The position numbers were made by a program, and so were the translations under genes. Shown one piece after another: positions 1 to 14,093 of a DNA stretch of 14,093 bases; within the stretch, counting starts at the first letter, position 1, and each line of letters starts with the position of its first letter. This DNA comes from Clostridia bacterium (lineage in GTDB: Bacteria > Bacillota_A > Clostridia > Oscillospirales > CAG-272): assembly GCA_017457545.1 (NCBI GenBank), contig JAFTHF010000070.1, positions 1 through 14,093 on the forward strand, read 5' to 3'. The notes below the pieces were generated by a model. It was not told where the DNA came from. It made no database searches and saw nothing but the letters and a program-made list of their open reading frames with translations.

Positions 1-1135
1 AATTTGTAAATGATGCCAAGTTTGCGTTAAACCACCCAACAATACCACCTGCATACATTGTTCCGTTAGTCGAGCAATTTTTTAACTCAGCTGTATTTTC
101 ACAGTTTGTAAGGCTAATACTTTCACCGCTACTAACATATCCGACTATTCCCGCAAGACCTTCAACCGAACTGGTAGTATTGGCTGTAATAGTTCCATTA
201 TTTTGGCAATTAGTCAGTGTGATTGTATCTTGTGACTCTCCGATAATTCCACCAAAACCATATACCGATTTATCACCATTGAACGCTATTGCGCCATTAT
301 TTATACACACGACAAGAGAAATTCCTGTTTGAGCTTCGCCAATAAGCCCCCCTACATTTGCCTTATTATAAGGAGAAGTAATCGTAATATCTGCATTATT
401 AACTACGTTTATAATCTTTGAGGTCCCCTTTACATAAGTTGCAAGCATTCCAAAGATTGCCGTCGTTTTGGTAACACTTCCATCAATAGCAATACTAATT
501 ATATTAGCGCCTTCATTAAGTGTACCGAACAAATTAGTTGTCGTATGAACCGTATATCCGTTTCCGTCAATCGTTCCCGAGAAGCTTGCTATTTGTGTAC
601 TATTCGGCTCACTTTCAGTTCCGATATCAGATTTCAGACGATATTTTCCCGTTTCTTCTATCTTACTCCACGAACTAATTACAGTATAGCTTCCCGGAGC
701 TTGATCAATGTCGTTTACTGCTTGTTCACCTGCCATATAAGTGCTATTGGCAGTGGTGTAAATCGGATTTATGATAAAGTCATGGGTATCAAGCTCCACA
801 AACATATCGGTAAATACAATAAGATATAAGTAGTTAAAGCCTTCTGTACTTGCGTTAAATTGCAGACTGTCTGCGTATATTTCTGTATATACCTTTTCAC
901 AGTTAGTTACGGTTGCCGAACCTCCGTCAAGCTTATTTGTGATAACAGCTCCAAGTCCCGTAAGAGTGGAAATATCAGTGTTTCTTATTCCAAAGACAAG
1001 GCGGGCATCATTATCCTTCACTTGATATCCAATATACTCTACTGCCTTTTCATCACTTGTATCTGCAAATGCAGAAAAATTAATCGCTGTAACAAGCATC
1101 GCCAAAAGTACTAAAAAAGAAATTAATTTTTTCAT
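1..1135 (-). CDS. Secreted GLUG-repeat surface protein, C-terminus cut by window edge
   Basis: The reading frame is open from an ATG at 1135 to the left edge (378 codons visible, no stop). A typical signal peptide covers residues 1 to about 25 (KK start, hydrophobic core, FSAFA before DTSDEK); there is no lipobox cysteine, so secretion rather than lipidation is predicted. Residues about 30-130 form a separate domain opening with YIGYQVKDNDARLVFGI, resembling from memory an all-beta module common in clostridial secreted proteins. A segment ending in IDGNGYTV leads into GLUG-like repeats with cores GGLIG, GGIIG, AGIVG and GGIVG, alternating with NCxNxG turns, as expected for a right-handed beta-helix. 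It follows the small ORF by 14 bp, and its ribosome site (AAGGAAGGGCGG) overlaps that ORF's stop. It is a paralogue of the 1407-3020 protein. Role probably surface adhesion or glycan contact; any C-terminal anchor lies outside. Sampled lines are 27-38% GC, lower than the paralogue. Confidence 0.85.
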   Translation of the reverse strand, partial: MKKLISFLVLLAMLVTAINFSAFADTSDEKAVEYIGYQVKDNDARLVFGIRNTDISTLTGLGAVITNKLDGGSATVTNCEKVYTEIYADSLQFNASTEGFNYLYLIVFTDMFVELDTHDFIINPIYTTANSTYMAGEQAVNDIDQAPGSYTVISSWSKIEETGKYRLKSDIGTESEPNSTQIASFSGTIDGNGYTVHTTTNLFGTLNEGANIISIAIDGSVTKTTAIFGMLATYVKGTSKIINVVNNADITITSPYNKANVGGLIGEAQTGISLVVCINNGAIAFNGDKSVYGFGGIIGESQDTITLTNCQNNGTITANTTSSVEGLAGIVGYVSSGESISLTNCENTAELKNCSTNGTMYAGGIVGWFNANLASFTN

Positions 1136-1149
1136 AATACCGCCCTTCC

Positions 1150-1305
1150 TTATTTAAAATCATTCCAGCCTAATGAGCCTGCGCCGGAGCTTGTCAAATC
1201 GTTATCCAAATTTAAATCGTCCTCAGAAACAGTTACGGAAAATGTTACAATATCCGCTGTTAACATATCTACGAGGTACGCTGTGGGAGAAATATATTTT
1301 TTCAT
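1150..1305 (-). CDS. Small 51-residue protein of unknown function
   Basis: ATG at 1305 is preceded by a good ribosome site (AGAGGAAAG, 7 bases before the ATG), and the ORF of 51 codons ends in TAA at 1150. It starts MKKYISPTAYLVDM, continues TADIVTFSVTVSEDD, then a D/N-rich stretch and a Gly/Ser turn (SSGAGSLGW) ending in NDFK. There is no signal peptide, membrane segment or cysteine. From memory, gut Clostridia have many short ORFs of the form MKKYxxP...D(I/V)(I/V)T.S followed by an acidic/glycine tail, usually labelled hypothetical; this fits that pattern, but no search could be run. It lies between a stem-loop and the secreted GLUG protein and is likely co-translated with the latter (14-bp gap). 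Function unknown: a small accessory protein or a peptide precursor are both possible. Confidence 0.65.
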   Translation of the reverse strand: MKKYISPTAYLVDMLTADIVTFSVTVSEDDLNLDNDLTSSGAGSLGWNDFK

Positions 1306-1354
1306 ATAAAATCTTTCCTCTTTCTTTAATTTACGGAATAATACAATTATGACT

Positions 1355-1392
1355 CTTGTCCTATACCCTTTTATGTAAGGATATAGGACAAG
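1355..1392 (-). promoter_or_regulatory. Intercistronic stem-loop with perfect 11-bp stem
   Basis: CTTGTCCTATA (1355-1365) pairs perfectly with TATAGGACAAG (1382-1392). After one C-A mismatch a further CCTT/AAGG stem closes over a TTATGT loop. It begins 14 bases past the stop of the GLUG lipoprotein. On the minus strand no T-run follows, so it is a poor classical terminator; it may stabilise the upstream mRNA, attenuate, or mark a processing point before the small ORF. Confidence 0.5.
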
Positions 1393-1406
1393 GTTTTAAT
1401 CATAGA

Positions 1407-3020
1407 TCATCTGACCGAAGGATAATCATCGGTATTTGCCTGCCACTTGGTATCAAAGTCAAATCCAACGAGTGTAGCCTTAGCTGCATCTCCCTTAAGT
1501 GATGCGGCTTCGGTATCAACATTGTTATAGCAGTTGGTAAAAGTAACTTCAATTCCGCTTGCCGCCTGATTTACTCCATAGAACATATCAGCCTTTGTTC
1601 CGGTAAGAATACCTACTACAAGCACATTTTTCACAGTAAGCTTCATAGAAGCCGCCGGGCACTTGATTCTTGCTATTATTCCGCCCACAGAAGTCTTTGC
1701 ATCCAAATTGCCGTAGTTTGCGCAATCTGTAATATTTACGGATACGAAGTTTGCTCCGAGGATACCTCCCGCATAGGACTCGGTTGCGTCAGATACCGTG
1801 ATGTTTCCACGGTTGGAACAGCATTCAATCGTTGCCACCTTATCGACATATACGTTGTCTTCCTTATGGTCTGTACGAATATCTGCGGTAATACCTGCGG
1901 CGTAACAGAATGTTCCTTTATTTGAGGTGTTTACCGTTATGTTACCACTGTTCTTGCAATTGATAAATGTAGCGTTGCCTCTGACAGCTCCCGCTATGCC
2001 TGCGCCTATTCTCTGGGACTTGATATTAGCGGTATTTTCACAGTTTTTGAAGGAATAGTTGCTCTCACGGCTATCTATCTCAAAGGTGCAGCCCAGGATA
2101 CCGCCGGCAAAATTATTGCCCTCGTACGTAGACTTTGCCGTGGTAATTTCTCCGCTGTTCTTACAATTCTCTATTTGCAGAGATTTGCATTTTGCCTGTC
2201 CAACGATACCTCCGGAATAGAGGACGTTACTCTTTTCCTGATTGGTGGAATGTATCTTTCCCGTATTCTCGCAATTATTAATAACATAGTCCGCAACCTC
2301 AACGTATCCCACGATACCCGCATGTCCGTAAATGCCCTTTGCGCCATCTATCGTAACCTCGCCTGTGTTTTTACAGTTTTCAAAGGTAGCTCCCATGTTT
2401 GCAACTCCAACCAATCCTGCCGCATATGCATCAGAGGTTCCTATGTTCTCAAGCAGATCAAGCCTTACCTTGGCATTATTGGTTACGTTGGTTATTACCG
2501 TCTCGCCCTTTGCGGTATTGGCAAGCGCACCTATTACGGTTTTACCGTAAAGAGTTACGTTGCCTTCAATGGTAAGATTCTTTACCTCTGAGGGAACGCT
2601 GGAAGCGTCGTCACCCAGTGTCATCTCACTGTTCAGCTCGTCAAACAACGGAACACTTGTGTATACGGTAAATCCGCAACCGTCAAGCACACCCTTGAAT
2701 TTACCTGTAACGGTGTACGCATTGGGCGTATCGGCATTACCGATATCTGCAGTAAGATGATATTTACCTCTGAGATTGGTAATGTCCTCAAGCTTTGTGA
2801 TGGCAATACTGTCCGAGGATACATCGTCGTTACCTTCATCGTCATTGTCATCATCATTAGCTTCGGGTACTTTATCATCCGGTTTAGTTTCCGGAGCTTC
2901 GGTCGTCGCTGTCGTTTCAGCAGTTGTGTCGGTGCTCTCCTCATCGGCTTTACAGGCAACAAATAGGCTTGATACCATCAACAAACAGATGAGAAGGCTG
3001 AGGATTTTTGTAAGTCTCAT
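1407..3020 (-). CDS. GLUG-repeat surface lipoprotein
   Basis: A 537-residue protein. ATG at 3020 has AAGGAG 6 bases upstream. Residues 1-22 are a lipoprotein signal (VSSLFVAC, lipidated Cys23). Residues about 24-70 are a T/E/D-rich low-complexity linker typical of clostridial lipoproteins. After a segment with KGVLDGCGFTVY (109-120) come about eight degenerate GLUG-type repeats, cores near 201 AGLVG, 234 AGIVG, 270 GGIVG, 306 GGILG, 340 AGIAG, 375 AGITA, 418 GGILG and 446 GGIIA, each followed by an NC.N.G.(I/V) turn, the signature of a beta-helix. It is the third gene of the left operon, 28 bp after the solute-binding protein. GLUG repeats occur in bacterial surface adhesins and proteases; no catalytic residues are visible. 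Likely an exposed binding or scaffold protein. The repeat count is by eye and the edges are soft. Confidence 0.85.
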   Translation of the reverse strand: MRLTKILSLLICLLMVSSLFVACKADEESTDTTAETTATTEAPETKPDDKVPEANDDDNDDEGNDDVSSDSIAITKLEDITNLRGKYHLTADIGNADTPNAYTVTGKFKGVLDGCGFTVYTSVPLFDELNSEMTLGDDASSVPSEVKNLTIEGNVTLYGKTVIGALANTAKGETVITNVTNNAKVRLDLLENIGTSDAYAAGLVGVANMGATFENCKNTGEVTIDGAKGIYGHAGIVGYVEVADYVINNCENTGKIHSTNQEKSNVLYSGGIVGQAKCKSLQIENCKNSGEITTAKSTYEGNNFAGGILGCTFEIDSRESNYSFKNCENTANIKSQRIGAGIAGAVRGNATFINCKNSGNITVNTSNKGTFCYAAGITADIRTDHKEDNVYVDKVATIECCSNRGNITVSDATESYAGGILGANFVSVNITDCANYGNLDAKTSVGGIIARIKCPAASMKLTVKNVLVVGILTGTKADMFYGVNQAASGIEVTFTNCYNNVDTEAASLKGDAAKATLVGFDFDTKWQANTDDYPSVR

Positions 3021-3048
3021 TTTCTACTCCTTTTTCTATATTTATTTT

Positions 3049-4497
3049 TTAAGAGTTCAAGGTTTCAACGATTGAGGTGATCTTGTTTTCCCATACCTCA
3101 TGGCTCATGGTATATATAGATGCCCACGCCTTAGATTTGTTTGCGGTACTTCTGAAAATATGATATATATTTATGTGGTCTGCAAACATTCTCGCCGCAT
3201 CGTAAACGACGTTATCCGTGATAATATCGAACATCTTTGCGTTATCATCGTTGGGAAGATATCTGTAGGAGAATGCGGTGTAATATACCTCAGGTGTTAC
3301 TGCACGGTAGCTATAGGACGCAAATGCTTCCAATGCAGCTCCCGAAAGCTCCATATTAGGTGAGTTTGTCGGAACACTGTACATACTTACCCAAAGAGTA
3401 GGAGTTGAATAATACTCCGCCTCCTTTACCTGCTTGAACACGGGAAGAATTGAAAAATTGAACGGGAGATCCGCAAGCGTTGTCATAAGCGCTCCCACAG
3501 ACTCGGTTGTAAAGAGGCTTCTGCTCTTTGCAAACAGACCCTCGTTGTTTACAGTTACGTTTGAATTGTCACATATCAATGCCTGTATCTCATCAAACCA
3601 ATCAATGAATCTGGGCTTTTGAAGATCAGTGGAAAGATTCATAACTCCACCGTTATTCTCAATAAGCGTATAGCCTGCGGAATACAGGAAATTATCGCAA
3701 TGAACGTCTATTCCCATTACGTAACCGTAATCTCTCGTACTCTCGTCAGCGCCCTGAGACACAGTAGCTATCATCTGCTTGAAAAGCTCAATAGTCCAAT
3801 CTCCGTCCTGTACCACCTCATAGATGCTACGTCCGTTAACCATACTGTCAAGTCCCAGCGAAGCATACATATCCATGTTAACGTACATACAACAAATATT
3901 GTTTATAGCAGTAGTGGTAATATCGCCCGAGGCAAAATACACCTTGTCGCCAACCGCAGTACACTCATTGAGATTTTTGGGCCACCAGGGCTTCTCAAGG
4001 TCAAGGTAGCTGATGGTATTAAGATCGGCGTACAAATTTTTCATTGCACCGACTCCTGCAGAGGGAGTATACTGAGATACCATGTGATACGAATTATCTC
4101 CAGCCATTATATCGTTTTCAAGCGCTTGTATGAACGTATAATGATCTGCCCATGCACCGGGCTGATCGATTATCTCCAATTCAACATTGAGTCTCTCGCA
4201 AACGCTTCTCTCTCTCTCATAAAGAGCCTTTTCCACTACATTGGAGGATTGTGCTCTTATTCCCCAATCCGCTTTAAGCTGGTCCTTCCAGGTAAAAACT
4301 CTTAGCAGTTCATTTTCGAAATCGAGATCGTCGGGAAGATCGTCTTTGAGATATCCGTTTTTATCAAACATACCGTCTGATGTGTCAGCCGTATTGACCG
4401 TGGCATCTTCATTAGTTTCACTTTTTGCACAGCCAACCAACACCATAGCAAGCATAGCTATACAAAGGAAGAGCGAAATAAACCTGATTTTTTTCAT
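3049..4497 (-). CDS. ABC transporter extracellular solute-binding lipoprotein
   Basis: A 482-residue protein. ATG at 4497 is preceded by AGGAG with 6-base spacing. Signal peptide with classic lipobox LVGC (Cys23), then an acidic linker. The mature part has family-1 (sugar-type) binding protein traits: an early beta-strand LLRVFTW, an R..C..L/V-E motif (VCERLNVELE), DIMAGDNSYHMV for the first lobe, LYADLN before a PWWP segment, VGDKVYFASGD, DGDWTIELF, and a late VPTNSPN with an Ala/Tyr-rich helix. It should bind a sugar or small oligosaccharide outside the membrane and deliver it to an ABC permease. No permease or ATPase gene lies in this window, so its partners are elsewhere. It begins 15 bp after the EEP lipoprotein stop, so the two are co-expressed; this suggests capture of a product released by the neighbouring enzyme. 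The ligand is not predictable here. Confidence 0.85.
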   Translation of the reverse strand: MKKIRFISLFLCIAMLAMVLVGCAKSETNEDATVNTADTSDGMFDKNGYLKDDLPDDLDFENELLRVFTWKDQLKADWGIRAQSSNVVEKALYERERSVCERLNVELEIIDQPGAWADHYTFIQALENDIMAGDNSYHMVSQYTPSAGVGAMKNLYADLNTISYLDLEKPWWPKNLNECTAVGDKVYFASGDITTTAINNICCMYVNMDMYASLGLDSMVNGRSIYEVVQDGDWTIELFKQMIATVSQGADESTRDYGYVMGIDVHCDNFLYSAGYTLIENNGGVMNLSTDLQKPRFIDWFDEIQALICDNSNVTVNNEGLFAKSRSLFTTESVGALMTTLADLPFNFSILPVFKQVKEAEYYSTPTLWVSMYSVPTNSPNMELSGAALEAFASYSYRAVTPEVYYTAFSYRYLPNDDNAKMFDIITDNVVYDAARMFADHINIYHIFRSTANKSKAWASIYTMSHEVWENKITSIVETLNS

Positions 4498-4512
4498 ATC
4501 ATTCTCCTATCT

Positions 4513-6258
4513 TTATTTTTTTATCTTAAAATCTGCGTATTGCGGCAGATGATCAGATACTATAAAAGTATTGTTCTTATCCACTATCTCATATCTTTCA
4601 ACGGTAACACTGTTATCAAAGAATACGTGGTCAGCAGGAATATCCGAGCCCGAAATCCCTACAGTATCATTAACAAGTGTTTCCGCGGCTCTTGCGCCTT
4701 CTCGTCCGTCGGTCATATCAACACCTAACTTGAAGGTATCAAATCCGCTGTTAACATGGAAGTTAAAGTCTCCTGTATAGAACACGTGGACTCCGCTGTA
4801 TTTGCTCTTAATGGAATTTAACACCTCGTTGGATTCATTTACCTGTATCTGATTTTCTGTTGAAGTACCTGACCAATGCGTATTCATGAGCGCATAGGGC
4901 TCGTTGGTAGCAAAATCCTTGACTACTATCCATGTAATTACTCTGAGCTTATAGCTTTTCTCATTGCTGATATTATATGAATAGCACTTGATCCCCCTAT
5001 CAAGAACGGTGTACTTATCTGCACGATAAAGAATCGATGTAAAGCAAGGAACATTATCGTATGTGCTGTACTCCCATACATACTTCACTCCGTATTGCTC
5101 CTCCAGAAGTTCAAGATAATACGGGAAGCACTTGCTCCACACCTCGTCTGATTCCTGCAAGCCCACCATATCGGGCTTATACGTCGCAAGAACCGCCGCA
5201 AATATCTCCGCTCTCTGAGGCACGGGTGTTGTTTTCCCCGATGCCGTTGCCCATCTGTCTGCAAGTATATTTGCCGACATGACTCTGATGTCACTTGTTG
5301 CCGTAATCGGCTGACTGTCCAAATTAAGTAAATTCTTTTCCATATGTACTCCGTTCGTCAAGGATTTTGCTCTACTTAATGAATAATTAAAATAAAAATC
5401 CGTAATAAATTCGTTTGCTGAATACGGTCCTCCGCAGGCAATGCCGAGCTTTGTTCCGGATACAAACATTTTATAGCTCATGAGCTTTACATTATTTTCG
5501 GCATAAAATGTTGTGCTTTCGCTTCTGTTGGTATTTCCTATAAGTATCTCGTTTGCTTTTTCATTTGCCGATGAATCCGAGGATACTGTCAAGGAGCAAC
5601 CGTATATCTTCTGAATATTATCTCTGAAACTATAGGCAACCGTACTCATTCCATCCGGCTTCGATGCAAATACTATGCTGAATTTTGATATATCCACGCC
5701 ACCTATAGTCAGGCTGTTAGCTTCCGATCGGTATTCGTATTCTTCAAAATACAAGCTTCTGCCGGAAGACGTAGCCTCAATGTTTTCTTTTATAAGATTT
5801 TTTATATAATAGCTTAACGCAGCGATAACAAGATCCTCACTTCTTGCCGTTATGATTATCTTGTTTTCCCGCTCAACTATAACATAATCATCCTTTCCCA
5901 ATGCATCGGTCACATCACGTGATATTCCGTAAGCAGTTCGCCCCACCAATATCTGCCTTGTATCCGCATTATACTCCGCCTCGTCGGTAATTATATCAAG
6001 CGTAGCGCCCGTATTATTGGTTATCTGAGCCTGCAGAGATTTTACATTTCTTATGAGATTTTTACCTGCATTGGCTGGATAAACGATCTGATATAAGGCT
6101 TTACCGTCTTTTACTATCGCCGTTCTTTCATTCACATCAGCCGTTTGCTCGCTTGCGGTATTCGATGTCTGCGCTGAGCTATCATTTTCTGTACAACCGG
6201 TACAACACATCAGCACCGCAAGAACGACCGTCAAAAGCGATTTGAATTTTTTCATCAT
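4513..6258 (-). CDS. Lipoprotein with tandem alpha/beta domains and C-terminal EEP phosphodiesterase domain
   Basis: A 581-residue protein from ATG 6258; ATGs at 6264 and 6255 are in frame, but AAGGGGG spaces best to 6258. Signal peptide with lipobox-like CTGC (Cys22). Residues about 48-160 and 188-295 are two copies of an alpha/beta module, each with an (I)LVGRT / LIGNT loop and a closing helix, resembling the N-terminal domain of GH67/GH20 enzymes. From about residue 323 comes an endonuclease/exonuclease/phosphatase domain with all expected motifs: MSANI (N330), VGLQE (E369), NTHW (H461), GDFN (D497, N499), DH (543-544) and SDHLP (D569, H570). This family cleaves phosphodiester or phosphomonoester bonds with Mg2+, in substrates from DNA to sphingomyelin and inositol phosphates. 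Outward lipid anchoring favours a lipid or glycan phosphodiester over a nucleic-acid housekeeping role. First gene of its operon, divergent from the AraC gene. Paralogue of the 9692-11338 protein. Substrate unknown. Confidence 0.85.
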   Translation of the reverse strand: MMKKFKSLLTVVLAVLMCCTGCTENDSSAQTSNTASEQTADVNERTAIVKDGKALYQIVYPANAGKNLIRNVKSLQAQITNNTGATLDIITDEAEYNADTRQILVGRTAYGISRDVTDALGKDDYVIVERENKIIITARSEDLVIAALSYYIKNLIKENIEATSSGRSLYFEEYEYRSEANSLTIGGVDISKFSIVFASKPDGMSTVAYSFRDNIQKIYGCSLTVSSDSSANEKANEILIGNTNRSESTTFYAENNVKLMSYKMFVSGTKLGIACGGPYSANEFITDFYFNYSLSRAKSLTNGVHMEKNLLNLDSQPITATSDIRVMSANILADRWATASGKTTPVPQRAEIFAAVLATYKPDMVGLQESDEVWSKCFPYYLELLEEQYGVKYVWEYSTYDNVPCFTSILYRADKYTVLDRGIKCYSYNISNEKSYKLRVITWIVVKDFATNEPYALMNTHWSGTSTENQIQVNESNEVLNSIKSKYSGVHVFYTGDFNFHVNSGFDTFKLGVDMTDGREGARAAETLVNDTVGISGSDIPADHVFFDNSVTVERYEIVDKNNTFIVSDHLPQYADFKIKK

Positions 6259-6320
6259 GCTCATCCCCCTTATTCCACATAATCAACATATCTGTACCTT
6301 CGTGTCAGCTTTGCACATAT

Positions 6321-6350
6321 ATTCTATCATAACACCCATCATCTTTGCAA
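6321..6350 (-). promoter_or_regulatory. Promoter of the left operon
   Basis: On the minus strand TTGCAA (6345-6350) and TAGAAT (6321-6326) are separated by 18 bp, placing a start near 6314 and a leader of about 50 bases before the EEP gene. The -35 is weak, fitting an activator-dependent promoter. The -10 context TGATAGAAT is identical to that of the right operon promoter. Confidence 0.6.
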
Positions 6351-6354
6351 TGAG

Positions 6355-6385
6355 ATTTTCGCCAAAGCATATGTGATATTCGACA
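6355..6385 (-). promoter_or_regulatory. Predicted AraC-type operator: two half-sites 21 bp apart
   Basis: On the plus strand ATTTTCGCCA (6355-6364) and ATATTCGACA (6376-6385) form a direct repeat with an 11-bp spacer (period 21). The proximal copy lies 4 bp upstream of the -35 and 28 bp upstream of the -10 of the left operon. The same arrangement occurs at 13383-13413. AraC-family proteins carry two helix-turn-helix units that bind direct repeats about two helical turns apart next to the -35, so this is the likely binding site of the adjacent regulator. Confidence 0.65.
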
Positions 6386-6387
6386 AC

Positions 6388-6515
6388 GTCAAAAATCACA
6401 TTTCCAAGTCAAAGGAGATTTTTAGTCCATCTTGCACATTTTATCAGTATCAAAACAGTCAATATAGCCAAGTTTCAACAAATTTTCCCAATGTCAAAAT
6501 ATATATTTTTCGCCT
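6388..6515. other. Rest of the 6265-6583 divergent intergenic region
   Basis: Besides the two promoters and the paired operator, this non-coding stretch holds two weaker matches to the half-site, ATTTTCCCAA (6482-6491) and TTTTTCGCCT (6506-6515, 7 bp upstream of the regulator -35), and four GTCAA words (6388, 6408, 6458, 6493) at irregular spacing. The weak half-sites are 24 bp apart rather than 21. They could serve autoregulation. No small gene or RNA gene is visible here. Confidence 0.3.
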
Positions 6516-6522
6516 TTTGGGG

Positions 6523-6551
6523 TTGACTTAACCTGCGTTTAATGTTATACT
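6523..6551 (+). promoter_or_regulatory. Sigma-A promoter of the AraC-family regulator gene
   Basis: TTGACT (6523-6528) and TATACT (6546-6551) with an optimal 17-bp spacer, 32 bp before the ATG at 6584. The -35 sits within GGTTGACTTAACC, a GGTT...AACC partial palindrome. A near-consensus promoter suggests steady, activator-independent expression of the regulator. Confidence 0.75.
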
Positions 6552-6583
6552 TATAGTACAAAAATATTGCATCGGAGTTGCTT

Positions 6584-7555
6584 ATGTCTTATTACAGATT
6601 TACGTTGGAAATTCCTAAAGCTAACGGCGAGTTTACTCACTCTCGTTCATCTTCACCAATGCTCTCAAAGGATACACCTCTGAAATACTTCGTTTACAGA
6701 TGCTACACATCGGAAAAGGACGATTGCAAAACACTTTACGTTTCAAACCTTGGGCACGAGTGTGATTGGCCTGATAAAAAAGTGGAAAACATAGTAAACG
6801 ATCGATTTATCATACATTATGTTATGCGAGGTGAGGGATATTTTAACGGTATGAATGTCAAAGCAGGACAGTTCTTTTTTACACATCCGTACGAGGTCTA
6901 TAGCATATCAAACAACCCGGACAACCCGTTGGAATACTACTATATCGGCGTTGCTGGAGCTTGGACACAGGATATCATCAATCAATCTCTGTTCTCCTCC
7001 ATTCCAAAGGTAAACGACTTTGGCTTTGCAAATGAAATTCCCAAGCTCATGTCTAAGCTGTTATATGAAAAGAACGACTTTCTTGATTTTGATTTCAACT
7101 TTTTGAGTACCTTTATGAAGCTCTTGGCTTATCACCGAACAGAAAATAAACGCATCAACGAATATACCTCCAACTCCGACTCTTACGTTTATTACCGCAG
7201 TGCCCTATCATACATACAGCATTATTTCAAGGACGCCATATCTCCCTCGGACGTATGCGCTTATCTGCATATTTCTCCTTCCTATCTTCGCCGCATTTTT
7301 TCGGAAAACTGTATTTATTCAGCCCAGGAGTTAATTATAAGAAAGCGTCTGATGTGCGCTATCAGTCATATCATTTTTGACAACTACACGATTTCCAAGG
7401 CAGCCGATATGGTGGGCTACGAGGACTATGCGCAGTTCAGCAAGCAGTTCAAAAAATATATCGGAATGTCGCCTATGGCATATAAGAAAAAATTTATTGA
7501 GGAAAAGCAGCTTTTAAATATCATCGACGATTCATTCGACAAAAAGGCAACCTGA
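6584..7555 (+). CDS. AraC-family transcriptional regulator
   Basis: A 323-residue protein from ATG 6584; GGAG (6574-6577) lies 6 bases upstream. An in-frame TTG at 6578 would add two residues but is too close to the ribosome site. Residues about 65-125 form a cupin-type sensor domain (HYVMRGEGYFNGM, then NVKAGQFFFTHPYEVY). The C-terminal part carries two helix-turn-helix units: about 219-244 (ISPSDVCAYLHISPSYLRRIFS) and about 268-302, with the family signature YTISKAADMVGYEDYAQFSK followed by KKYIGMSPMAYKK. Such proteins sense a small ligand, often a sugar, and activate transcription. It is divergent from the left operon and converges on the right operon. The paired 21-bp-spaced sites before both operons fit its two-HTH architecture, so it is the likely activator of both. 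The ligand is unknown, plausibly a product of the locus. Confidence 0.93.
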   Translation: MSYYRFTLEIPKANGEFTHSRSSSPMLSKDTPLKYFVYRCYTSEKDDCKTLYVSNLGHECDWPDKKVENIVNDRFIIHYVMRGEGYFNGMNVKAGQFFFTHPYEVYSISNNPDNPLEYYYIGVAGAWTQDIINQSLFSSIPKVNDFGFANEIPKLMSKLLYEKNDFLDFDFNFLSTFMKLLAYHRTENKRINEYTSNSDSYVYYRSALSYIQHYFKDAISPSDVCAYLHISPSYLRRIFSENCIYSAQELIIRKRLMCAISHIIFDNYTISKAADMVGYEDYAQFSKQFKKYIGMSPMAYKKKFIEEKQLLNIIDDSFDKKAT

Positions 7556-7579
7556 GCGATGTAAGCATTGCGCCGCAAC

Positions 7580-7635
7580 AAAAGAAGAACATCAAGACCA
7601 CCTGAAAAATCAGTGCCCGATGTTCTTCTTTTTAT
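7580..7635. terminator. Bidirectional intrinsic terminator between convergent genes
   Basis: AAAAGAAGAACATC (7580-7593) pairs perfectly over 14 bp with GATGTTCTTCTTTT (7619-7632). The intervening segment can fold an inner CACCTGA/TCAGTG hairpin (one bulged C) over AAAA. T-rich flanks follow on both strands (TTTTTATTG on plus, TTTTGTTG on minus), so it can end the regulator transcript and the right operon. Confidence 0.85.
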
Positions 7636-7647
7636 TGTTACAAATTT

Positions 7648-9681
7648 TTAATTCAAATCGAAGAGGTCGTAATCAACCTTTACACTGCCCCATGTATACG
7701 TATATCTCACCCATGCGTAGCGTGAAAGCGAATTGTCGGTGTGCTTGGGGTATCCGTGAGCTATGGCAAAGCTGTCGATCTTAACGCCGTCCTGAAGATG
7801 AAGCAGAGTCGCTTTAAGCTTGGCTCTACCGCCGCCTCTGATATAGTCGGGCTCATAACAGCTATACATATTTCCGTCCTCGGTGGCTTTGGCAAAATTG
7901 GTAACAAAGCCATTCCATGAAGCGCATAACGCCTCCTTGTCACCTGTCATAATTCCATACCAGAAAAGCGCCTCCGCCTTCCAAATAGTCCAAGCATGAC
8001 CTGCGCATATGGCGTGTCCTTCGCCGTCCCCCTCCCAGATAGTCTCCCACCATCTGAACGATGATCCGTACATTCTTGCGTCGGGTGTGTATATAGTCCA
8101 TGCCTTGTGAATATCAAGTACCTCTTTGGCAAAAGCAAGATACCTTTCATCGTAATTCAAATTTGCGCAAAGGTACACAAGAGAAAGCGCTGTACAGGAT
8201 ATAGAACCGTCCTCATATTTTGAAGATGCACCCTCCGTCGGGAAATTAAGCCCTCTTGACAGCAGATACTCCGCCATTTCCAGAGCCGTCCTTCTGTATT
8301 TATCACTCTTTTCGGGGTCAATATCCTTCAACTCTATGGCAAGATCTACCACGGGGATCATCGGGGTTACTACTGTGGTATAATCCTCTCCATTGCCGTT
8401 GAAAATCATACCTCCCTTATAGTAATTCTCAAGCAACTCGTCCATTGCCTTCACCGCATAGTCAAGGTACTCCCTTTCATGATACAGACGGTAAGCCTCA
8501 AGCAATATTGATGCTCCCACAAACTGCTCCTGTATCCTTCCCGAGTCACACACATGGTAAGGCGCATATTTTTCCGTTCTGTAGGGAACTATGGTGCGAC
8601 AAGGCACAATTCTGTTATTGCGGCACATAATAATATCAAGCTCGTCTCTTGCAACCTTATCGTATCTCAAATTTCGTCGACTTCTCATATTGGCAAGCAT
8701 TGACCACAAAAACATTCCTCCCTCACAGAGATTTTCGTCGTTATGATAAGGCTTTTTTATGGCATCTGTGCATTTATTAAATAAGACGGCAGAATCAATT
8801 CCGTTCCAAAGAACCGTATTCAGCCCTTTCTTCTCATTGTAATACGGTGTCGCAGTATAATATCCGTATTCGCTCATATTAAGAATAAGCTTTTTATTAG
8901 TTACCTTATAAACAGATGTAACTCCTGTAGGAGAACAAAGGCGAATTTCCGTAGCCTTACCCACAACTCCCACAGCCGCCTTTCCATCAAAGCCGCCACT
9001 AACAATATTTTTCAGCAGTGGGCGGTCGAGAAGCTCCGATATACGCTCGTATGCCTCATCAATGCTGTCTGCAAAAAACACGCTTACAGATATCTCTTTA
9101 CAACCACTTGAACCGAACACTTTATCGAAGGATGCTATTATCTGTAGTCGTGATATCTTTTGATTCCTTCCGTAAAACAGCCTCCAACCATCACATTTCT
9201 TTCTTGAAAGAATAACCATAAAGCGTCCGTCGGGACGGGTCAAAATATAATACAGCTGCTCACCATCATCAGACGTATACGGAGAGGTAGCAAGCAGAGC
9301 GGTCTTATATGAGCCTGTTTCACTGTTTAAAAAGTTCAAATCGAAATTCAAGGCATACTGTGATATCAGCTCGCAAGTAGTTCTTGATTGAATATCAAGC
9401 CTGTCCTCAGATAGCTCATATATAGTCTTTATCCCGTTTTCAGCGTTACTGCACACTGCCTTATTGTAAAACTGTTGAGTATGCTCATATTCGGCAACTC
9501 GATCGTAAAACAACACACCCTCTGTCTTTTTCTCTTGATTTCTGATATCGTCACTGATAAAAGTATAGCCTATGGTTCCTGTAGCACCCTCTCCATTTAC
9601 CATGTTCTGTTGCTCACCGCAGGAAAAAAGTCCTACTATTCTGCCGTTCTCTATCTGTATATTAAAGTACTTATTCTCCAT
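7648..9681 (-). CDS. Predicted cytoplasmic glycosidase-like protein, family not recognised
   Basis: A 677-residue protein. ATG at 9681 is chosen over the upstream ATG at 9738 because a perfect GAGGAGGAA (9685-9693) directly precedes it and the longer form would overlap the previous gene. No signal peptide. Residues 1 to about 230 look all-beta (many short strands, GRIVGLF, IGYTFI, YYILTRPDGRF). A short second beta segment covers about 231-300. Residues about 310-620 are helix-rich with repeated aromatic/acidic patches (QEQFVGASILLEAYRLY, AVKAMDELLENYYKGG, then RWWETIWEGDGEGH and GHAWTIWKAEALFWYG), the pattern of an (alpha/alpha)6 toroid as in six-hairpin glycosidases. Conserved-looking acids E546, E550 and D552 near the double Trp are candidate catalytic residues. 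Last gene of the right operon, coupled to the EEP gene upstream. A role in glycan breakdown is inferred from fold and context; a polysaccharide lyase or an epimerase-like role is also possible. Confidence 0.7.
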   Translation of the reverse strand: MENKYFNIQIENGRIVGLFSCGEQQNMVNGEGATGTIGYTFISDDIRNQEKKTEGVLFYDRVAEYEHTQQFYNKAVCSNAENGIKTIYELSEDRLDIQSRTTCELISQYALNFDLNFLNSETGSYKTALLATSPYTSDDGEQLYYILTRPDGRFMVILSRKKCDGWRLFYGRNQKISRLQIIASFDKVFGSSGCKEISVSVFFADSIDEAYERISELLDRPLLKNIVSGGFDGKAAVGVVGKATEIRLCSPTGVTSVYKVTNKKLILNMSEYGYYTATPYYNEKKGLNTVLWNGIDSAVLFNKCTDAIKKPYHNDENLCEGGMFLWSMLANMRSRRNLRYDKVARDELDIIMCRNNRIVPCRTIVPYRTEKYAPYHVCDSGRIQEQFVGASILLEAYRLYHEREYLDYAVKAMDELLENYYKGGMIFNGNGEDYTTVVTPMIPVVDLAIELKDIDPEKSDKYRRTALEMAEYLLSRGLNFPTEGASSKYEDGSISCTALSLVYLCANLNYDERYLAFAKEVLDIHKAWTIYTPDARMYGSSFRWWETIWEGDGEGHAICAGHAWTIWKAEALFWYGIMTGDKEALCASWNGFVTNFAKATEDGNMYSCYEPDYIRGGGRAKLKATLLHLQDGVKIDSFAIAHGYPKHTDNSLSRYAWVRYTYTWGSVKVDYDLFDLN

Positions 9682-9684
9682 TCG

Positions 9685-9693
9685 TTCCTCCTC
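9685..9693 (-). promoter_or_regulatory. Ribosome binding site overlapping the upstream stop codon
   Basis: On the minus strand the sequence reads TGAGGAGGAACGAATG: the TGA (9694-9692) ending the EEP lipoprotein gene overlaps the GAGGAGGAA ribosome site of the glycosidase-like gene, whose ATG is at 9681. This decides the start of the downstream gene and suggests translational coupling. Confidence 0.85.
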
Positions 9694-11338
9694 AAAGTAT
9701 TTTATAGCATACGATAACCGCTCTGTGATCCGAGGCATAACTTCCGTCGTAGGTATCGGTTATAACATCGTACTCATATACTAAAAAATCTCCCTCGCTC
9801 AAAAAAGCATAATCAATGGTAGTCTGTTTAAAAGTAGGTGTACTTTCGCTGATAAATGCAATATCCGATGAATTTTCAAATTTTTCGGAAAGAATATACT
9901 GTATAGATGGACAATCGACAGTATCGTTAAAGTCCCCCGTAATTGCCGTAGGAATATCCCCGTACCGACTTGTAAGAAAGCTTGTCATTATCTTTACCTG
10001 CTCAAGTCTTACCAAATTATTATTCACATGATCAGTATGGGTATTAACATGAATAAGCTGCTTTCCCGTTTCGTTAACCCTCAACACCACGTAAGTAAAT
10101 ATTCTCGGATAGACAGCTCCCGAAAGCTTTGAGCCGGCTACATCGGGAGTACTTGACATCCATTTGGTACCGCTGTCAACAACAGTGAATTTATCCTTTT
10201 TATAAAATATCGCATTATATTCATTGTCACCGTATGGATATCTTCCCGCTCCTACGCAAGCATATTCGTCACCAAGATTTTCATTGAGAATAGACAGCCA
10301 GCTTCCCGTTGCCTCCTGCACGCCAAAGGTATCGGGGCGGTATTTCTCTATGGTATCCAATACGTTTTTTATTCGGGTACTGTCCGATGTATCCCAATTA
10401 ACATTGAAGCTCATGGTACTCAAGGCATTGGCGGATATCTTATTTATTCCCGCTTCTATCTCAAGAATTCCGTTACTTGCACATATGGCATTGCAAAGAT
10501 CGCTTACCGACTCATATAGTGCAACAGATGTGGAAGCGTATACGTAAAAGCATTCTCCTTTCATGCCTAACCAATATTCATTTTCAAGATTTATTGCCTC
10601 CGGAGCTACGGCAGGCGTATTGCCGACCAGTATGTTTTTTCCCTGCGGCGCAGTCTTTCCCGCAGACCTTGTATCAAGAAGATATCCTGTGGACCGGCAA
10701 ATAGCATCTCTGATAAGCTCTGCCGCTTTTTTATATGCCGCGCCGCTTTGGAACACTATGTCATACTCAGATATGCTCGCTCCGTTAAGTATCATGTCAT
10801 CTAATCTGTATTCACCGTAAAACATAACATTGTCATCTGTAGTAAAAAATAACTCTCTGTTACTCTCAAGCAAAATATCTATAAGCGCTTCAACCGCCTT
10901 ATAAGTAGAGTCAGATGTAATACCACCGACTACAAGCTTTTTATCTTGAAGCCTTACCAAATAGTCATCTGCCTTCTCTATCTCCGAAAGTATATTCTCC
11001 CCTAATGAACGATTTGTTGCACCTACTATTATCTCCGTATCACGTTCAACATAGCCCTCACTCTTTTTTATGTAGTCATCCCGTACCTCAAGCATAATAC
11101 CAAACTGCGCATTTACGGTTTCAACCAAATTATCCACCGCATCGTCAAGACCTTTACTGCCTTCATCGGAAGAATATATTATAACGTAATCCTCAAGCTC
11201 TGATACAGCTATCTCACTGTATATACCTGTATGTGTATCTGTCTGTGAAACGATGTTTTCCCCGTCATTCTTACACCCGCAAAAGGCTATTAAGCCTATA
11301 AAGCAAAGTAGCAAACAAATTATACCCTTAGTTTTCAT
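9692..11338 (-). CDS. Second lipoprotein with tandem alpha/beta domains and EEP phosphodiesterase domain
   Basis: A 548-residue protein from ATG 11338, with GGAGG 10 bases upstream; an in-frame TTG at 11347 sits too near that site. Signal peptide ending AFCGC (Cys22 lipidated). Two alpha/beta modules, about 47-160 (IIVGAT loop) and 188-290 (ILVGNT loop), precede the EEP domain, starting at about residue 307 with MSFNV (N312). The remaining motifs are FGVQE (E342), VNTHTDH (H434), GDFND (D469, N471), IDYAF (D509) and SDHRA (D537, H538), so the active site looks complete. It matches the 4513-6258 protein domain for domain, but the EEP motifs differ in detail (THTDH against THW; SDHRA against SDHLP), suggesting related but not identical substrates. 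It is preceded by the SGNH esterase (23-bp gap) and translationally coupled to the glycosidase-like gene. A surface phosphodiesterase or phosphatase is the best call. Confidence 0.85.
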   Translation of the reverse strand: MKTKGIICLLLCFIGLIAFCGCKNDGENIVSQTDTHTGIYSEIAVSELEDYVIIYSSDEGSKGLDDAVDNLVETVNAQFGIMLEVRDDYIKKSEGYVERDTEIIVGATNRSLGENILSEIEKADDYLVRLQDKKLVVGGITSDSTYKAVEALIDILLESNRELFFTTDDNVMFYGEYRLDDMILNGASISEYDIVFQSGAAYKKAAELIRDAICRSTGYLLDTRSAGKTAPQGKNILVGNTPAVAPEAINLENEYWLGMKGECFYVYASTSVALYESVSDLCNAICASNGILEIEAGINKISANALSTMSFNVNWDTSDSTRIKNVLDTIEKYRPDTFGVQEATGSWLSILNENLGDEYACVGAGRYPYGDNEYNAIFYKKDKFTVVDSGTKWMSSTPDVAGSKLSGAVYPRIFTYVVLRVNETGKQLIHVNTHTDHVNNNLVRLEQVKIMTSFLTSRYGDIPTAITGDFNDTVDCPSIQYILSEKFENSSDIAFISESTPTFKQTTIDYAFLSEGDFLVYEYDVITDTYDGSYASDHRAVIVCYKIL

Positions 11339-11361
11339 AATACGCAAACCTCCATTATACT

Positions 11362-12447
11362 TCAGCTATGAACCTTTTCAGACCATATCCATCTGAATTC
11401 GCTCTCTATCGCCTTTGCCATAAGATAAAATCCGTAGTCATTGGGATGTGTAGTATCGACCGTACACATATCACCGTCTGCATCTCTGAAAAAGCTTGAG
11501 CCGTCAAGGAAAAATACGTTTACATCTCCGTGCTCACGTGCATATCTGTATGCGGAGTATATGGCATTTCTGCGAAGCATATTTTCTTTGTATCTTTGAT
11601 TGTGATAATCGGGACGGCTTATCATAAGATAAGGAATGTCCGGTGCTTTTTCCCTGAACTTCAAATAGAATGGCAGCGCCTTTTCTTCAAGACTTTTGGC
11701 AGATGATGTATTATGGTCAAAATCGCACACGAGCAAGGACATCTCAAGCTCTGAAAGATATTCAGCCATTACAGTCTCTCCCAAAGCAGAGCCCGAAAAG
11801 CCAAGATTGATAAAATCTATATCCGTATGCCTGCAAATTATATTCGGATAGGCATTTCCGGGACGTGATGAGCATGCCCCCTGAGTTATTGAGCTTCCAT
11901 AGTATACGATAGGTGCCACGGCTCTATATTTAAGTCCGCTACCGCAAAATGCCGACGTTTCAAGTCCTATCTCCAAATTTGAAACTGCGCTGTAGCTTGG
12001 GAAATTCAAGGTAAGATACCGCTTTTTTCTGTCAAGGAATTCTATCTTTGCCTCAAAGCCATTCTTCATGTCGGTATTCGGCTTAAATGTATCGTAAAAT
12101 CTGCTATCTGAGGATTCCTCATTGTCAATATAAAGGTCAAATCCCGCTGACGATATAAACGCCATATGTGACATATTGGAATAAACAGGCTGAGTAGTCC
12201 TTATCACAACGCATTTTGAATCTGTACAAAAGCGCACCCTACCACCTGACGTATATTGATTAAGTCTCGCCACTCCGTTATTTACCTGCCTGGCTATCTC
12301 CTCCGGCATACGTATAAATGCCCCCGATTGACATGGATCATAAAGTCCGTATATTTCAAAAGGAGCGCTGCGTGCATTCCGAAATGTCATCCCGTCCTCA
12401 TTCACTTTATTATCGATAATTAGATTTTTGTCTACCTCATGCGCCAT
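11362..12447 (-). CDS. SGNH/GDSL-family esterase with N-terminal beta domain
   Basis: A 361-residue protein. ATG at 12447 has GAGGAG 8 bases upstream. No signal peptide, so probably cytoplasmic. Residues about 28-170 form an N-terminal beta domain with a GLY..........F.R.P pattern (IYGLYDP then AFIRMPEE), like the domain that precedes the GDSL_3-type lipase/esterase domain. The hydrolase part has block I YYGSSITQG (nucleophile probably S186), block II NLGFSGSA (N214, G219), block III CDFDHN (N246 in the oxyanion position, in place of GxND) and block V DTTHPND (D331, H334). These enzymes remove acetyl or acyl groups from glycans and other substrates. It follows the GDPD gene by 22 bp and precedes the EEP lipoprotein. 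Its job in the operon is probably deacylation of imported fragments. The fold call is strong; the substrate is unknown. Confidence 0.88.
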   Translation of the reverse strand: MAHEVDKNLIIDNKVNEDGMTFRNARSAPFEIYGLYDPCQSGAFIRMPEEIARQVNNGVARLNQYTSGGRVRFCTDSKCVVIRTTQPVYSNMSHMAFISSAGFDLYIDNEESSDSRFYDTFKPNTDMKNGFEAKIEFLDRKKRYLTLNFPSYSAVSNLEIGLETSAFCGSGLKYRAVAPIVYYGSSITQGACSSRPGNAYPNIICRHTDIDFINLGFSGSALGETVMAEYLSELEMSLLVCDFDHNTSSAKSLEEKALPFYLKFREKAPDIPYLMISRPDYHNQRYKENMLRRNAIYSAYRYAREHGDVNVFFLDGSSFFRDADGDMCTVDTTHPNDYGFYLMAKAIESEFRWIWSEKVHS

Positions 12448-12469
12448 TTTTCCGTCTCCTCATAATCCC

Positions 12470-13312
12470 TTAATTTTGCTTTTTATAATATCTGTTGGTA
12501 TTCTTCAAATACTCTATAAGCATACTCGGCCAATCAGTTTGAATTATATCAAAGCCCCTGTCTGCAAGCCAGCCCCAGCCCTTTTCCATGTCCTTCGTAA
12601 GAGCGGTATCATCTGAATGAAATGCCGAAAGCTGATCCTTGTAATTATATATTATCGAGTTTGCCCAAATAAGCTTACCGTCTCGGTGCATTTTGTCCAT
12701 TATCTCTCGGCTTATATTCCGCGAACTTTCCGAGGTAAATAACATTTCCGCACCTAAGTAATTAATGTTTCGTTTCATCAATTCCTCATGAAGCTCATAA
12801 TTATCCTTCACTATAGGAAGATATGGAATATCCGGCGCTACTTCCTCAAGTATATTGAATACTTTTTCCGAGGGGCTGCATTTCACAACCGTCTGCTCTA
12901 ACATACCGTGGCGCTTGATCGCATTGTATATTTCAACAGGATGCCCCCAAAATTTATCTACGTTTATATAGCATCTTCCTTTAAAGCATTCCAATACCTC
13001 ATCAAATGTAGCTATACCAAATTGAGTAGGGGTGCGGTCATAATTGACATAACGCAGAGATTTTATATATTCATATGTCATTGTAGGTATTCTTTTATTA
13101 ATTCTGAGATGCGCTTCCTCCATGTTTGGATGAAAAATAACAAGAACACCGTCTAAGCTGACATCGACATCAACCTCAATCATATCAGCACCTTGCAATA
13201 ACGCTATCTCATATGCAGCTATAGTATTACAGGGAATGTTGCCTCCGGATACTCCCCTATGTGCTGCAACTATTATATGTCTTTTAGAAACATCAATCAG
13301 ATCGAACTCCAT
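12470..13312 (-). CDS. Glycerophosphodiester phosphodiesterase family protein
   Basis: A 280-residue protein from ATG 13312; AAGGAG is 7 bases upstream, whereas the TTG at 13333 lies before that site. GDPD fold motifs are in order: AAHRG (H18, R19), NT (29-30), the stretch QGADMIEVDVDVSLDG with metal-binding E46 and D48, then VIFHP (H61), INVDKFW (D119, K120), LIWANS (W216, N218) and IIQTDWP (D260). The family hydrolyses glycerophosphodiesters to glycerol-3-phosphate and an alcohol, and some members act on other phosphodiesters. Departures from the usual pattern are PCNT for PENT and NVDK for the usual E.K. No signal peptide is present, so it acts in the cytoplasm. It is the first gene of the right operon, directly behind the operator. 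Pairing with surface EEP enzymes suggests processing of imported phosphodiester fragments. Family call is confident; the substrate is inferred. Confidence 0.9.
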   Translation of the reverse strand: MEFDLIDVSKRHIIVAAHRGVSGGNIPCNTIAAYEIALLQGADMIEVDVDVSLDGVLVIFHPNMEEAHLRINKRIPTMTYEYIKSLRYVNYDRTPTQFGIATFDEVLECFKGRCYINVDKFWGHPVEIYNAIKRHGMLEQTVVKCSPSEKVFNILEEVAPDIPYLPIVKDNYELHEELMKRNINYLGAEMLFTSESSRNISREIMDKMHRDGKLIWANSIIYNYKDQLSAFHSDDTALTKDMEKGWGWLADRGFDIIQTDWPSMLIEYLKNTNRYYKKQN

Positions 13313-13348
13313 TTGATAACTCCTTATAAACAAAAATATTATTAATTT

Positions 13349-13378
13349 ATTCTATCACATTTTCAATAAATCCGTCAA
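13349..13378 (-). promoter_or_regulatory. Promoter of the right operon
   Basis: On the minus strand TTGACG (13373-13378) and TAGAAT (13349-13354) are 18 bp apart, giving a start near 13342 and a short leader (about 30 bases) to the GDPD start. The extended context TGATAGAAT matches the left operon promoter exactly. Confidence 0.7.
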
Positions 13379-13382
13379 CGGA

Positions 13383-13413
13383 ATATTCGACACAGCGTTT
13401 GTTATTTTCGACT
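13383..13413 (-). promoter_or_regulatory. Predicted AraC-type operator of the right operon
   Basis: On the plus strand ATATTCGACA (13383-13392) and ATTTTCGACT (13404-13413) are direct repeats with an 11-bp spacer (period 21). The proximal copy is 4 bp from the -35 and 28 bp from the -10, the same distances as at 6355-6385. The likely binder is the AraC protein encoded at 6584-7555. Confidence 0.65.
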
Positions 13414-13482
13414 ATGTTATAAAAAGCAGTGATAAGTCTGGGAATTTGCAAGCCGCAGTCAAATAAATATCCCCCGTTTTGA

Positions 13483-13520
13483 TATGCACCCCAAAAGTTA
13501 GACATTTTTGGAGGTGCATA
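13483..13520 (+). repeat. Inverted repeat sequestering the orfA ribosome binding site
   Basis: TATGCACC (13483-13490) is the perfect inverse of GGTGCATA (13513-13520); adjacent CC and GG can extend the stem with a one-base bulge. GGAGG (13510-13514), the orfA ribosome site, lies inside the 3' arm. Read-through RNA from outside would hide it, a known way for insertion sequences to limit transposase made from external promoters. Confidence 0.55.
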
Positions 13521-13525
13521 TTTTT

Positions 13526-13912
13526 ATGGCAAAGAAAGGAACAAAACAGAAAAGGTACTCGACAGAATTCAAGGTGTGTGTTATAATGAATATGCGAGAA
13601 CACCATCTTGGATATCGTGAAACAGCAAGAAAGTATTTTGATGCCAAGACTCGTTCGGAAGAAGAACAGTATACAGGCAGCATAAAAAGATGGGAACGCA
13701 TATTTTTGGAAGAAGGAACCGAAGGTCTGATGAAAGAACGCTGAGGCAATTCCTACGGAAGTAAAAAAGGGCGTCCGCCCAAGCTTGATAAAAAGGTAGA
13801 AGAAGATCTCATCGCAGAGAACCAAAGACTCAGAATGGAGATTGAGTACTTAAAAAAACTGAGTGCCTTAGTTATTGCGGAAGAGCAAAAGAACGGCAAA
13901 AAGCAGAAATAA
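13526..13912 (+). pseudogene. IS3 orfA interrupted by an in-frame TGA
   Basis: ATG at 13526 (MAKKGTKQKRYSTEFK) is placed 11 bases after GGAGG. The protein has the helix-turn-helix of IS3-family OrfA (YSTEFKVCVIMNMRE, GYRETARKYF, IKRWERIFLEEGTEGLM). TGA at 13742-13744 stops it after LMKER. The same frame then continues with a normal OrfA C-terminal half: SKKGRPPKLDKKVEEDL and the leucine-zipper-like NQRLRMEIEYLKKL, to TAA at 13910-13912. Genes nearby use TGA as a true stop, so recoding is unlikely; a CGA or AGA to TGA change is the simplest explanation. This copy probably makes only a short N-terminal fragment unless the stop is read through. Confidence 0.75.
13852..13858 (+). other. Programmed -1 frameshift site (A AAA AAA)
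   Basis: Seven A residues in the orfA frame split as A AAA AAA. The orfB frame is open from 13846, just after a TGA at 13843 in that frame, and orfA ends at 13912, so slippage must fall within this short overlap. This is the standard way IS3 elements make the OrfAB transposase. Confidence 0.7.
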
Positions 13913-14093
13913 TCTCTGAACTAAGGCAAAAGTATCCGCTTAAAGATTTGTTAGAACTTTCCGTGATAGCAAGAAGCATATATTATTACTACCTAAAACA
14001 GAAAAATAAGGACAAATACGAAAGCGAAAAACAAGCTATCTTAGAGATCTATAAATCGCACAACGGCAGATACGGTTACAGAAGAATCTGCTC
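13858..14093 (+). CDS. IS3 orfB transposase, N-terminal part only
   Basis: Read in the -1 frame from the slippery site, the product begins TECLSYCGRAKERQKAE and continues ISELRQKYPLKDLLEL, SIYYYYLKQ and finally YKSHNGRYGYRRIC at the window edge. The (K/R)YGYRRI block is the HTH_21 region that precedes the DDE integrase core in IS3-family OrfB. About 78 codons are visible and open. The catalytic residues are outside the window, so intactness cannot be judged. Because orfA carries a stop before the slippery site, this frame may not be expressed as a fusion. Confidence 0.75.

Follow-up and report, generated by a model that had tools for sequence, protein, structure and literature searches.

AraC-family regulators are described as recognizing direct repeats of 21-bp period in the available part of PMC3870299, which covers rhamnose regulators of Bacillales, Bacteroides and Enterococcus. 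In Caldicellulosiruptor, local AraC-family carbohydrate regulons have tandem sites upstream of sugar transporter and enzyme promoters with the regulator gene alongside, and the accessible part of PMC8579813 reads tandem sites in this position as activator sites. Here we analysed 14,093 nucleotides of a Clostridia bacterium (contig JAFTHF010000070.1, positions 1 to 14,093; hereafter the window), in which a gene for an AraC-family protein (araC) lies between two putative operons whose promoters are each preceded by a pair of 10-bp boxes. The window resembles the rhamnose systems in its AraC-family protein, its apparently local control, its 21-bp direct repeat and its group-specific operator words (PMC3870299, same part). 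In contrast, the words themselves are others, and the candidate targets are an endonuclease/exonuclease/phosphatase (EEP) protein, a substrate-binding protein (SBP), an esterase, a glycerophosphodiester phosphodiesterase (GDPD) and a lyase-like protein. It also resembles the Caldicellulosiruptor regulons, in a different organism and with different genes; transcription starts were mapped in Caldicellulosiruptor (PMC8579813, same part). The lactose sensor BgaR (6nwh, 6nwj) is the best structural match of the N-terminal part of the regulator, and full-length AraC-family structures, ToxT and Rns among them, come next. Identity to BgaR is 21-25%, and its ligand is not transferable. The arrangement further resembles that of E. 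coli AraC at araI1-I2, namely two 17-bp bipartite subsites in a 21-bp register with the proximal one extending into the -35, but the operator words of the window differ.

Two promoters with paired boxes in one register

Both promoters read leftward, on the minus strand, and share one geometry. The -10 hexamer TAGAAT lies at 6326-6321 (left) and 13354-13349 (right), the -35 is TTGCAA at 6350-6345 and TTGACG at 13378-13373, and in each case an 18-bp spacer is followed by TGATAGAAT. The proximal box is separated from the -35 by a 4-bp gap and from the hexamer by exactly 28 bp, and the box period is 21 bp in both pairs. On the plus strand, the left boxes read ATTTTCGCCA (6355-6364) and ATATTCGACA (6376-6385), and the right boxes ATATTCGACA (13383-13392) and ATTTTCGACT (13404-13413). 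The coordinates and spacings given in the original prediction, which was made from the sequence before this analysis, were thus right to the base.

When the window was searched with the two-box pattern allowing up to 3 mismatches, the left and right sites were the only 2 matches, with 0 mismatches each; dinucleotide shuffles gave a mean of 0.07 matches and none of 200 reached two, a comparison that flatters the pattern, which was written from both sites themselves. Left and right box letters agree at 16 of 20 positions, as many as in 22 of 1000 order-2 Markov sequences. With the boxes, the -35 and the extended -10 taken together, 28 of 35 letters agree, and no order-2 Markov sequence among 1000 reached 28 (the largest value was 25). 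The strength of the match comes mostly from boxes and register together, not from the box letters alone.

Conservation in relatives and the bipartite subsite

A protein search found close AraC homologues (41-47% identical, E <=1e-50) in 5 of 35 genus genomes; the order (394) and class (391) samples held none at E 1e-50 beyond genome G001 itself. All five genes stand divergent from orthologous EEP-SBP genes, and each of the five loci has the operator, spaced as in the window from a -35 position and a -10. Orthologous loci therefore keep the paired boxes wherever a close AraC occurs in the genus sample, and so do not refute the original prediction. EEP homologues (E <=1e-15) were found in 14 of the 35 genomes, and the nine without a close AraC have no promoter match. 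In addition, a relaxed promoter model matched once in each of the five genomes, in none of the other 30, and in 0 of 35 as a reversed-pattern control; this model was written after the five sites had been seen, so that its informative part is the absence from 30 genomes and the occurrence of just one match in each of the others.

The promoter model also proved rare and did not match hundreds of promoters, an outcome that would have counted against the original prediction. A pattern taken from the window only, including the -10, matched two stretches in a single scan of genome_contigs, and the fixed pattern had 0 matches in viral_contigs. One of the two matches (L001, from a metagenome-assembled genome of uncultured Ruminococcus sp. 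RUG14066) falls exactly where an AraC orthologue (43% identical) and the orthologous left operon diverge; the EEP gene of this operon is 32% identical to the left one. The other match (L002) was rejected: it lies inside a 367-codon open frame on a 5.2-kb contig without an AraC-like frame. In the family sample the relaxed model matched 8 of 395 genomes, three of them from the five genus genomes, and the reversed pattern matched 1. Five of the family matches, in G301, G084, G182, G225 and G130, came from outside the genus set and are presumed to be chance matches. When 1.7 to 3.1 kb was examined around each, four of the five had no AraC-like frame; the match in L064 is contained in large open frames, among them one with a score of 1e-08 against the AraC profile, that in L060 lies inside a 255-codon frame, and no frame of 150 codons covers the matches in L061, L062 and L063.

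Furthermore, a 38-bp matrix built from the five relatives only placed 6385 first, at 24.9 bits, and 13413 second, at 24.6 bits, in a scan of the window; the next best score was 13.4. The matrix is not wholly independent: a protein search led to the five loci, but their sites were picked with the words of the window or a relaxed version of these. None of the publications searched (openly licensed PMC articles only) names this regulon.

Alignment of 14 subsites from 7 promoters showed that each subsite is 17 bp long and bipartite, WRTCGAAAAY-n2-CATWK, with a CAT module 2 bp beyond the first part and about as conserved as it. The consensus TGKCGAAWAT of the original prediction thus captures the first part of each subsite but is incomplete: it omits the CAT module, and its T1 and G2 are not required. 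Of the 12 left-type subsites, 11 have CAT and one, the second subsite of G389, has AAT. A 17-bp bipartite subsite is the contact that would be expected of a monomer with two helix-turn-helix motifs. The operators have the form of an AraC-type tandem operator, with direct repeats of about 17 bp and a 21-bp period, the right one in the first part only. At the left promoter the proximal subsite reaches the -35, as at class II AraC-dependent promoters: its CATTG (6352-6348) shares TTG with the -35 at 6350-6345.

Proposed activation and competing explanations

We propose that the AraC-family protein encoded at 6584-7555 probably activates both operons through the tandem operators. The protein would bind the two 17-bp subsites of each operator at their 21-bp period, and at the left promoter the proximal CATTG half would run into the -35 in class II fashion. 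With a ligand that is probably of the carbohydrate type, it would recruit RNA polymerase to the promoter of the left operon, which encodes the EEP lipoprotein, the sugar-binding lipoprotein and repeat proteins, and through the second operator copy, in the same register, it would do so for the right operon in vivo (GDPD, SGNH esterase, EEP lipoprotein and lyase-like protein). We regard as real a conserved tandem AraC-type operator that appears to serve the left operon; before the right one stands a near copy with matching register. The activator with two helix-turn-helix motifs that had been predicted between the operons gains support from the paired boxes conserved at 5 of 5 loci, the rarity of the promoter model and the AraC-family domains of the protein. 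The local regulon of two operons that had been predicted with it gains support at the left site, which is conserved in relatives; control of the right operon is a matter of the window only, and its site lacks CAT.

Several observations weigh against this proposal. The right operator lacks CAT in both subsites (CAA and CGT) and, because these replace CAT, its affinity may be lower. The case for control of the right operon comes from the window and finds no support in relatives, because CAT is missing and because the lyase-like gene has no relative in the 35 genus genomes (a search that lacked a positive control). The two-box letters by themselves, with up to 3 mismatches, matched 13 to 27 times per genome against 2 to 26 for the reversed control, which exceeded the pattern in G401 and G404; the operator ranked alone at the top in G001 and G401, shared the top rank in G134 and G389, and was outranked in G404. 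Agreement of the box letters alone is only moderately unlikely in the Markov sequences. Finally, the family sample includes genomes with a more distant AraC homologue (G390, 35%; G064, 33%; G070, 32%; G048, 34%) and no match to the promoter model, and for this reason we give activation by the AraC protein slightly less weight.

The missing CAT modules bear on the idea that the left operon alone responds, while the copy before the right one is decayed, has low affinity, or answers a related AraC of slightly different specificity. The high frequency of CAT in left-type subsites fits this idea, and an orthologous right operon for comparison was not found in the 35 genus genomes. The right site nevertheless retains both 10-bp boxes with their 21-bp period, the 4-bp gap to the -35, the 18-bp spacer and TGATAGAAT, and the matrix of the relatives scores it close to the left site, so we consider a left-only target unlikely. 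Binding of the boxes by some regulator other than the AraC between the operons would be in keeping with the many AraC-family genes per genome in this group (25 matches in G001) and with the distant homologues that lack the promoter model; it is made improbable by the operator in the divergent region of the close AraC at all five loci and by the absence of the model from the 30 of 35 genus genomes without a close AraC.

Slightly less probable still is that the AraC protein represses through the paired sites. The proximal subsite does touch the -35, but the sites lie upstream of the -10 and the start, not over them; two of the five relatives have a poor -35 (TTTACT, TTTTAT), as activator-dependent promoters may show; and AraC-family sites so placed are read as activator sites in the part of PMC8579813 cited above. 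The original prediction had held that matching words and spacing 7 kb apart were unlikely to arise by chance, and a chance likeness of two AT-rich promoters, for which the 22 in 1000 model sequences that match the box letters could be cited, is hardly credible: none of 1000 reached the match once the promoter register was included, and five orthologous loci conserve the operator. Activation by the intervening AraC protein thus remains our preferred explanation. It would be an ordinary kind of genetic switch, with an apparent takeover of a second operon as a modest extra, and it would group these previously unannotated lipoproteins and enzymes, whose relatives occur in uncultured Ruminococcus-like bacteria, into one unit whose co-regulation through a defined operator can be tested.

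Genes of the locus and related cassettes

Table 1. Predicted features of the window, with positions, strand and remarks
Feature	Position	Strand	Remarks
Left operator, distal box TGTCGAATAT	6376..6385	-	full subsite 6385-6369, ends CATAT
Left operator, proximal box TGGCGAAAAT	6355..6364	-	full subsite 6364-6348, ends CATTG, overlaps -35
Left promoter TTGCAA-18-TAGAAT, TG before -10	6321..6350	-	
Right operator, distal box AGTCGAAAAT	13404..13413	-	CAA at CAT-module position
Right operator, proximal box TGTCGAATAT	13383..13392	-	CGT at CAT-module position
Right promoter TTGACG-18-TAGAAT, TG before -10	13349..13378	-	
AraC-family regulator, 323 aa, proposed activator of both operons	6584..7555	+	HTH_18, AraC_binding
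araC promoter TTGACT-17-TATACT	6523..6551	+	
Left gene 1, lipoprotein-like, EEP domain	4513..6264	-	PF03372 1.1e-05, 25.7 bits (cut-off 24.5)
Left gene 2, sugar-type ABC substrate-binding lipoprotein (SBP)	3049..4497	-	predicted fold
Left gene 3, lipoprotein-like repeat protein (our label, GLUG)	1407..3020	-	
Secreted repeat protein similar to left gene 3, cut by window end	2..1135	-	
Right gene 1, GDPD family with DUF4996	12470..13312	-	PF03009 8.4e-18, PF16387 1.5e-23
Right gene 2, SGNH/GDSL esterase family, GxDLY N-domain	11362..12447	-	PF14606 1.3e-33, PF14607 1.1e-25
Right gene 3, EEP-domain lipoprotein-like protein	9692..11347	-	PF03372 1.1e-13
Right gene 4, weak likeness to PL27 rhamnose-glucuronate lyase BACCELL_00875	7648..9681	-	5no8 E 3.1e-05

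The regulator gene stands back to back with the left operon, and its product is an AraC-family protein with the domains expected of one, as judged from profile matches and a predicted model, which has a predicted local distance difference test (pLDDT) of 85.3 and is structurally closest to the BgaR lactose sensor. The AraC/XylS C-terminal domain with two helix-turn-helix motifs was recovered by HTH_18 (4.6e-16, 59.3 bits; cut-off 33.6) and HTH_AraC (45.4 bits; cut-off 26.6), and the model contains the helices of this DNA-binding domain; the cupin-type N-terminal ligand-binding domain was recovered by AraC_binding (4.8e-08, 33.3 bits; cut-off 21.1). The regulator has 18 homologues besides itself, the best 85% identical.

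Both EEP proteins exceed the Pfam cut-off of 24.5 bits (25.7 for 4513-6264 and 51.9 for 9692-11347) and carry QE, NTH, GD-N and SDH, which are invariant in 7 aligned proteins and which we take to be catalytic-type motifs. The SBP has no Pfam match in any of 8 members and no PDB sequence match; its predicted fold (model pLDDT 75) matches sugar-binding proteins (best E 9.9e-14, template modelling score 0.51), and by this predicted fold only it qualifies as an ABC sugar-binding protein. The GLUG repeat protein has a relative downstream in the cluster of four of the five relatives (not G001).

The right operon reads toward araC from 13.3 kb and, within the window, includes no AraC gene. The start of its GDPD gene was picked by eye as an ATG behind AGGAG, and the closest solved structure of the product is 3i10. 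The SGNH esterase has a relative (51% identical) in G134 (L103:2855-3943), in a region that also encodes two EEP proteins and an SBP, which suggests that the right operon belongs to the same cassette repertoire. Solved relatives of the EEP protein at 9692-11347 include the mannosyl-6-phosphatase 4c1r (E 1.1e-20). The likeness of the 7648-9681 product, whose start was taken from a 677-aa database copy, to the PL27 lyase is weak and limited to residues 480-641 (E 3.1e-05; 0.0039 by profile). The PL27 enzyme BACCELL_00875 releases rhamnose from gum arabic, according to the available part of PMC8377490. We infer that the operon may serve in trimming decorated or phosphorylated glycans.

In G001, G134 and G389 an AraC-like gene is often the neighbour of an EEP homologue, so that the cassette recurs, also within single genus genomes (L095-L114; 14 EEP matches in G134 and 10 in G001). 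We chose 20 regions from the EEP matches and looked at eight of them in an exploratory way (L095, L096, L098, L100, L102, L105, L110 and L111). Ten regions with an AraC-like gene beside an SBP or EEP gene were then scored for repeat spacing, namely seven of these (L098 was dropped) together with L099, L104 and L108, over stretches set by hand; L101 and L109 were scored nowhere. When the ten cassettes were pooled, 21 bp ranked first of 31 spacings before the -10 at 6 of 6 widths (z 3.4 to 4.8), and it was still first without L102 at the one width tried. Taken singly, nothing beats 21 bp in only three of the ten (L095, L100 and L102), and L104, L108 and L111 score 6/16. The operator words differ between cassettes, for example CAAATGGAGACAT / CAATTGGAGACAT in L102. 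The regions that had not been seen beforehand (L099, L104 and L108) showed no 21-bp preference (rank 11 to 24), nor did the eight left-out regions (rank 3 to 14), among which L097 and L098 contribute nothing to any spacing in the stretch taken. Over all 18 regions, 21 bp ranked 1 or 2 (z 2.2 to 4.2). For G401 and G404, the automatic spacing score failed to recover the operator already known there.

The 21-bp layout across paralogous cassettes is thus a lead and not a result, since it rests on the regions seen first, and for that reason we give a shared blueprint less weight. Tentatively, and with more doubt than confidence, we consider that the AraC/SBP/EEP cassettes of the genus form a family, diverged by duplication, of which some share a blueprint of tandem subsites at 21 bp by the -35 but use private words, which would make them insulated local switches, and that the right operon was taken over by the AraC of its neighbour; in that same doubtful reading, a regulator-less right cassette would have gained the words of its neighbour in exact register. 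If such a blueprint with private words is shared, the cassettes would offer a natural series of related AraC proteins for studying how DNA specificity diverges, and common operators could link cassettes to substrates.

Smaller observations concern the regulator gene and the flank. A single further half-site, AGGCGAAAAA, with one mismatch, lies at 6506-6515 on the minus strand, 7 bp upstream of the araC -35. It is inverted (6515-6506), and no other candidate with one mismatch occurs in the divergent region. It could serve autoregulation, but the window has 23 single half-sites with at most 1 mismatch. The AraC homologue of G390 has a paired site with 3 mismatches (L013 2511, L017 1339), 3 bp before TTGACT-17-TAAAAT and reading toward its own AraC gene, perhaps also for autoregulation. 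In the gap where araC and the right operon end, an inverted repeat found by eye (GAAGAACATC...GATGTTCTTC, then a T run; 7584-7635) looks like a two-way terminator; an automated scan did not return it, and its loop may be longer than that scan allows. About 70 bp behind the right operator, the plus strand carries an IS3-like transposase region (13480-14093), named from a look at the sequence.

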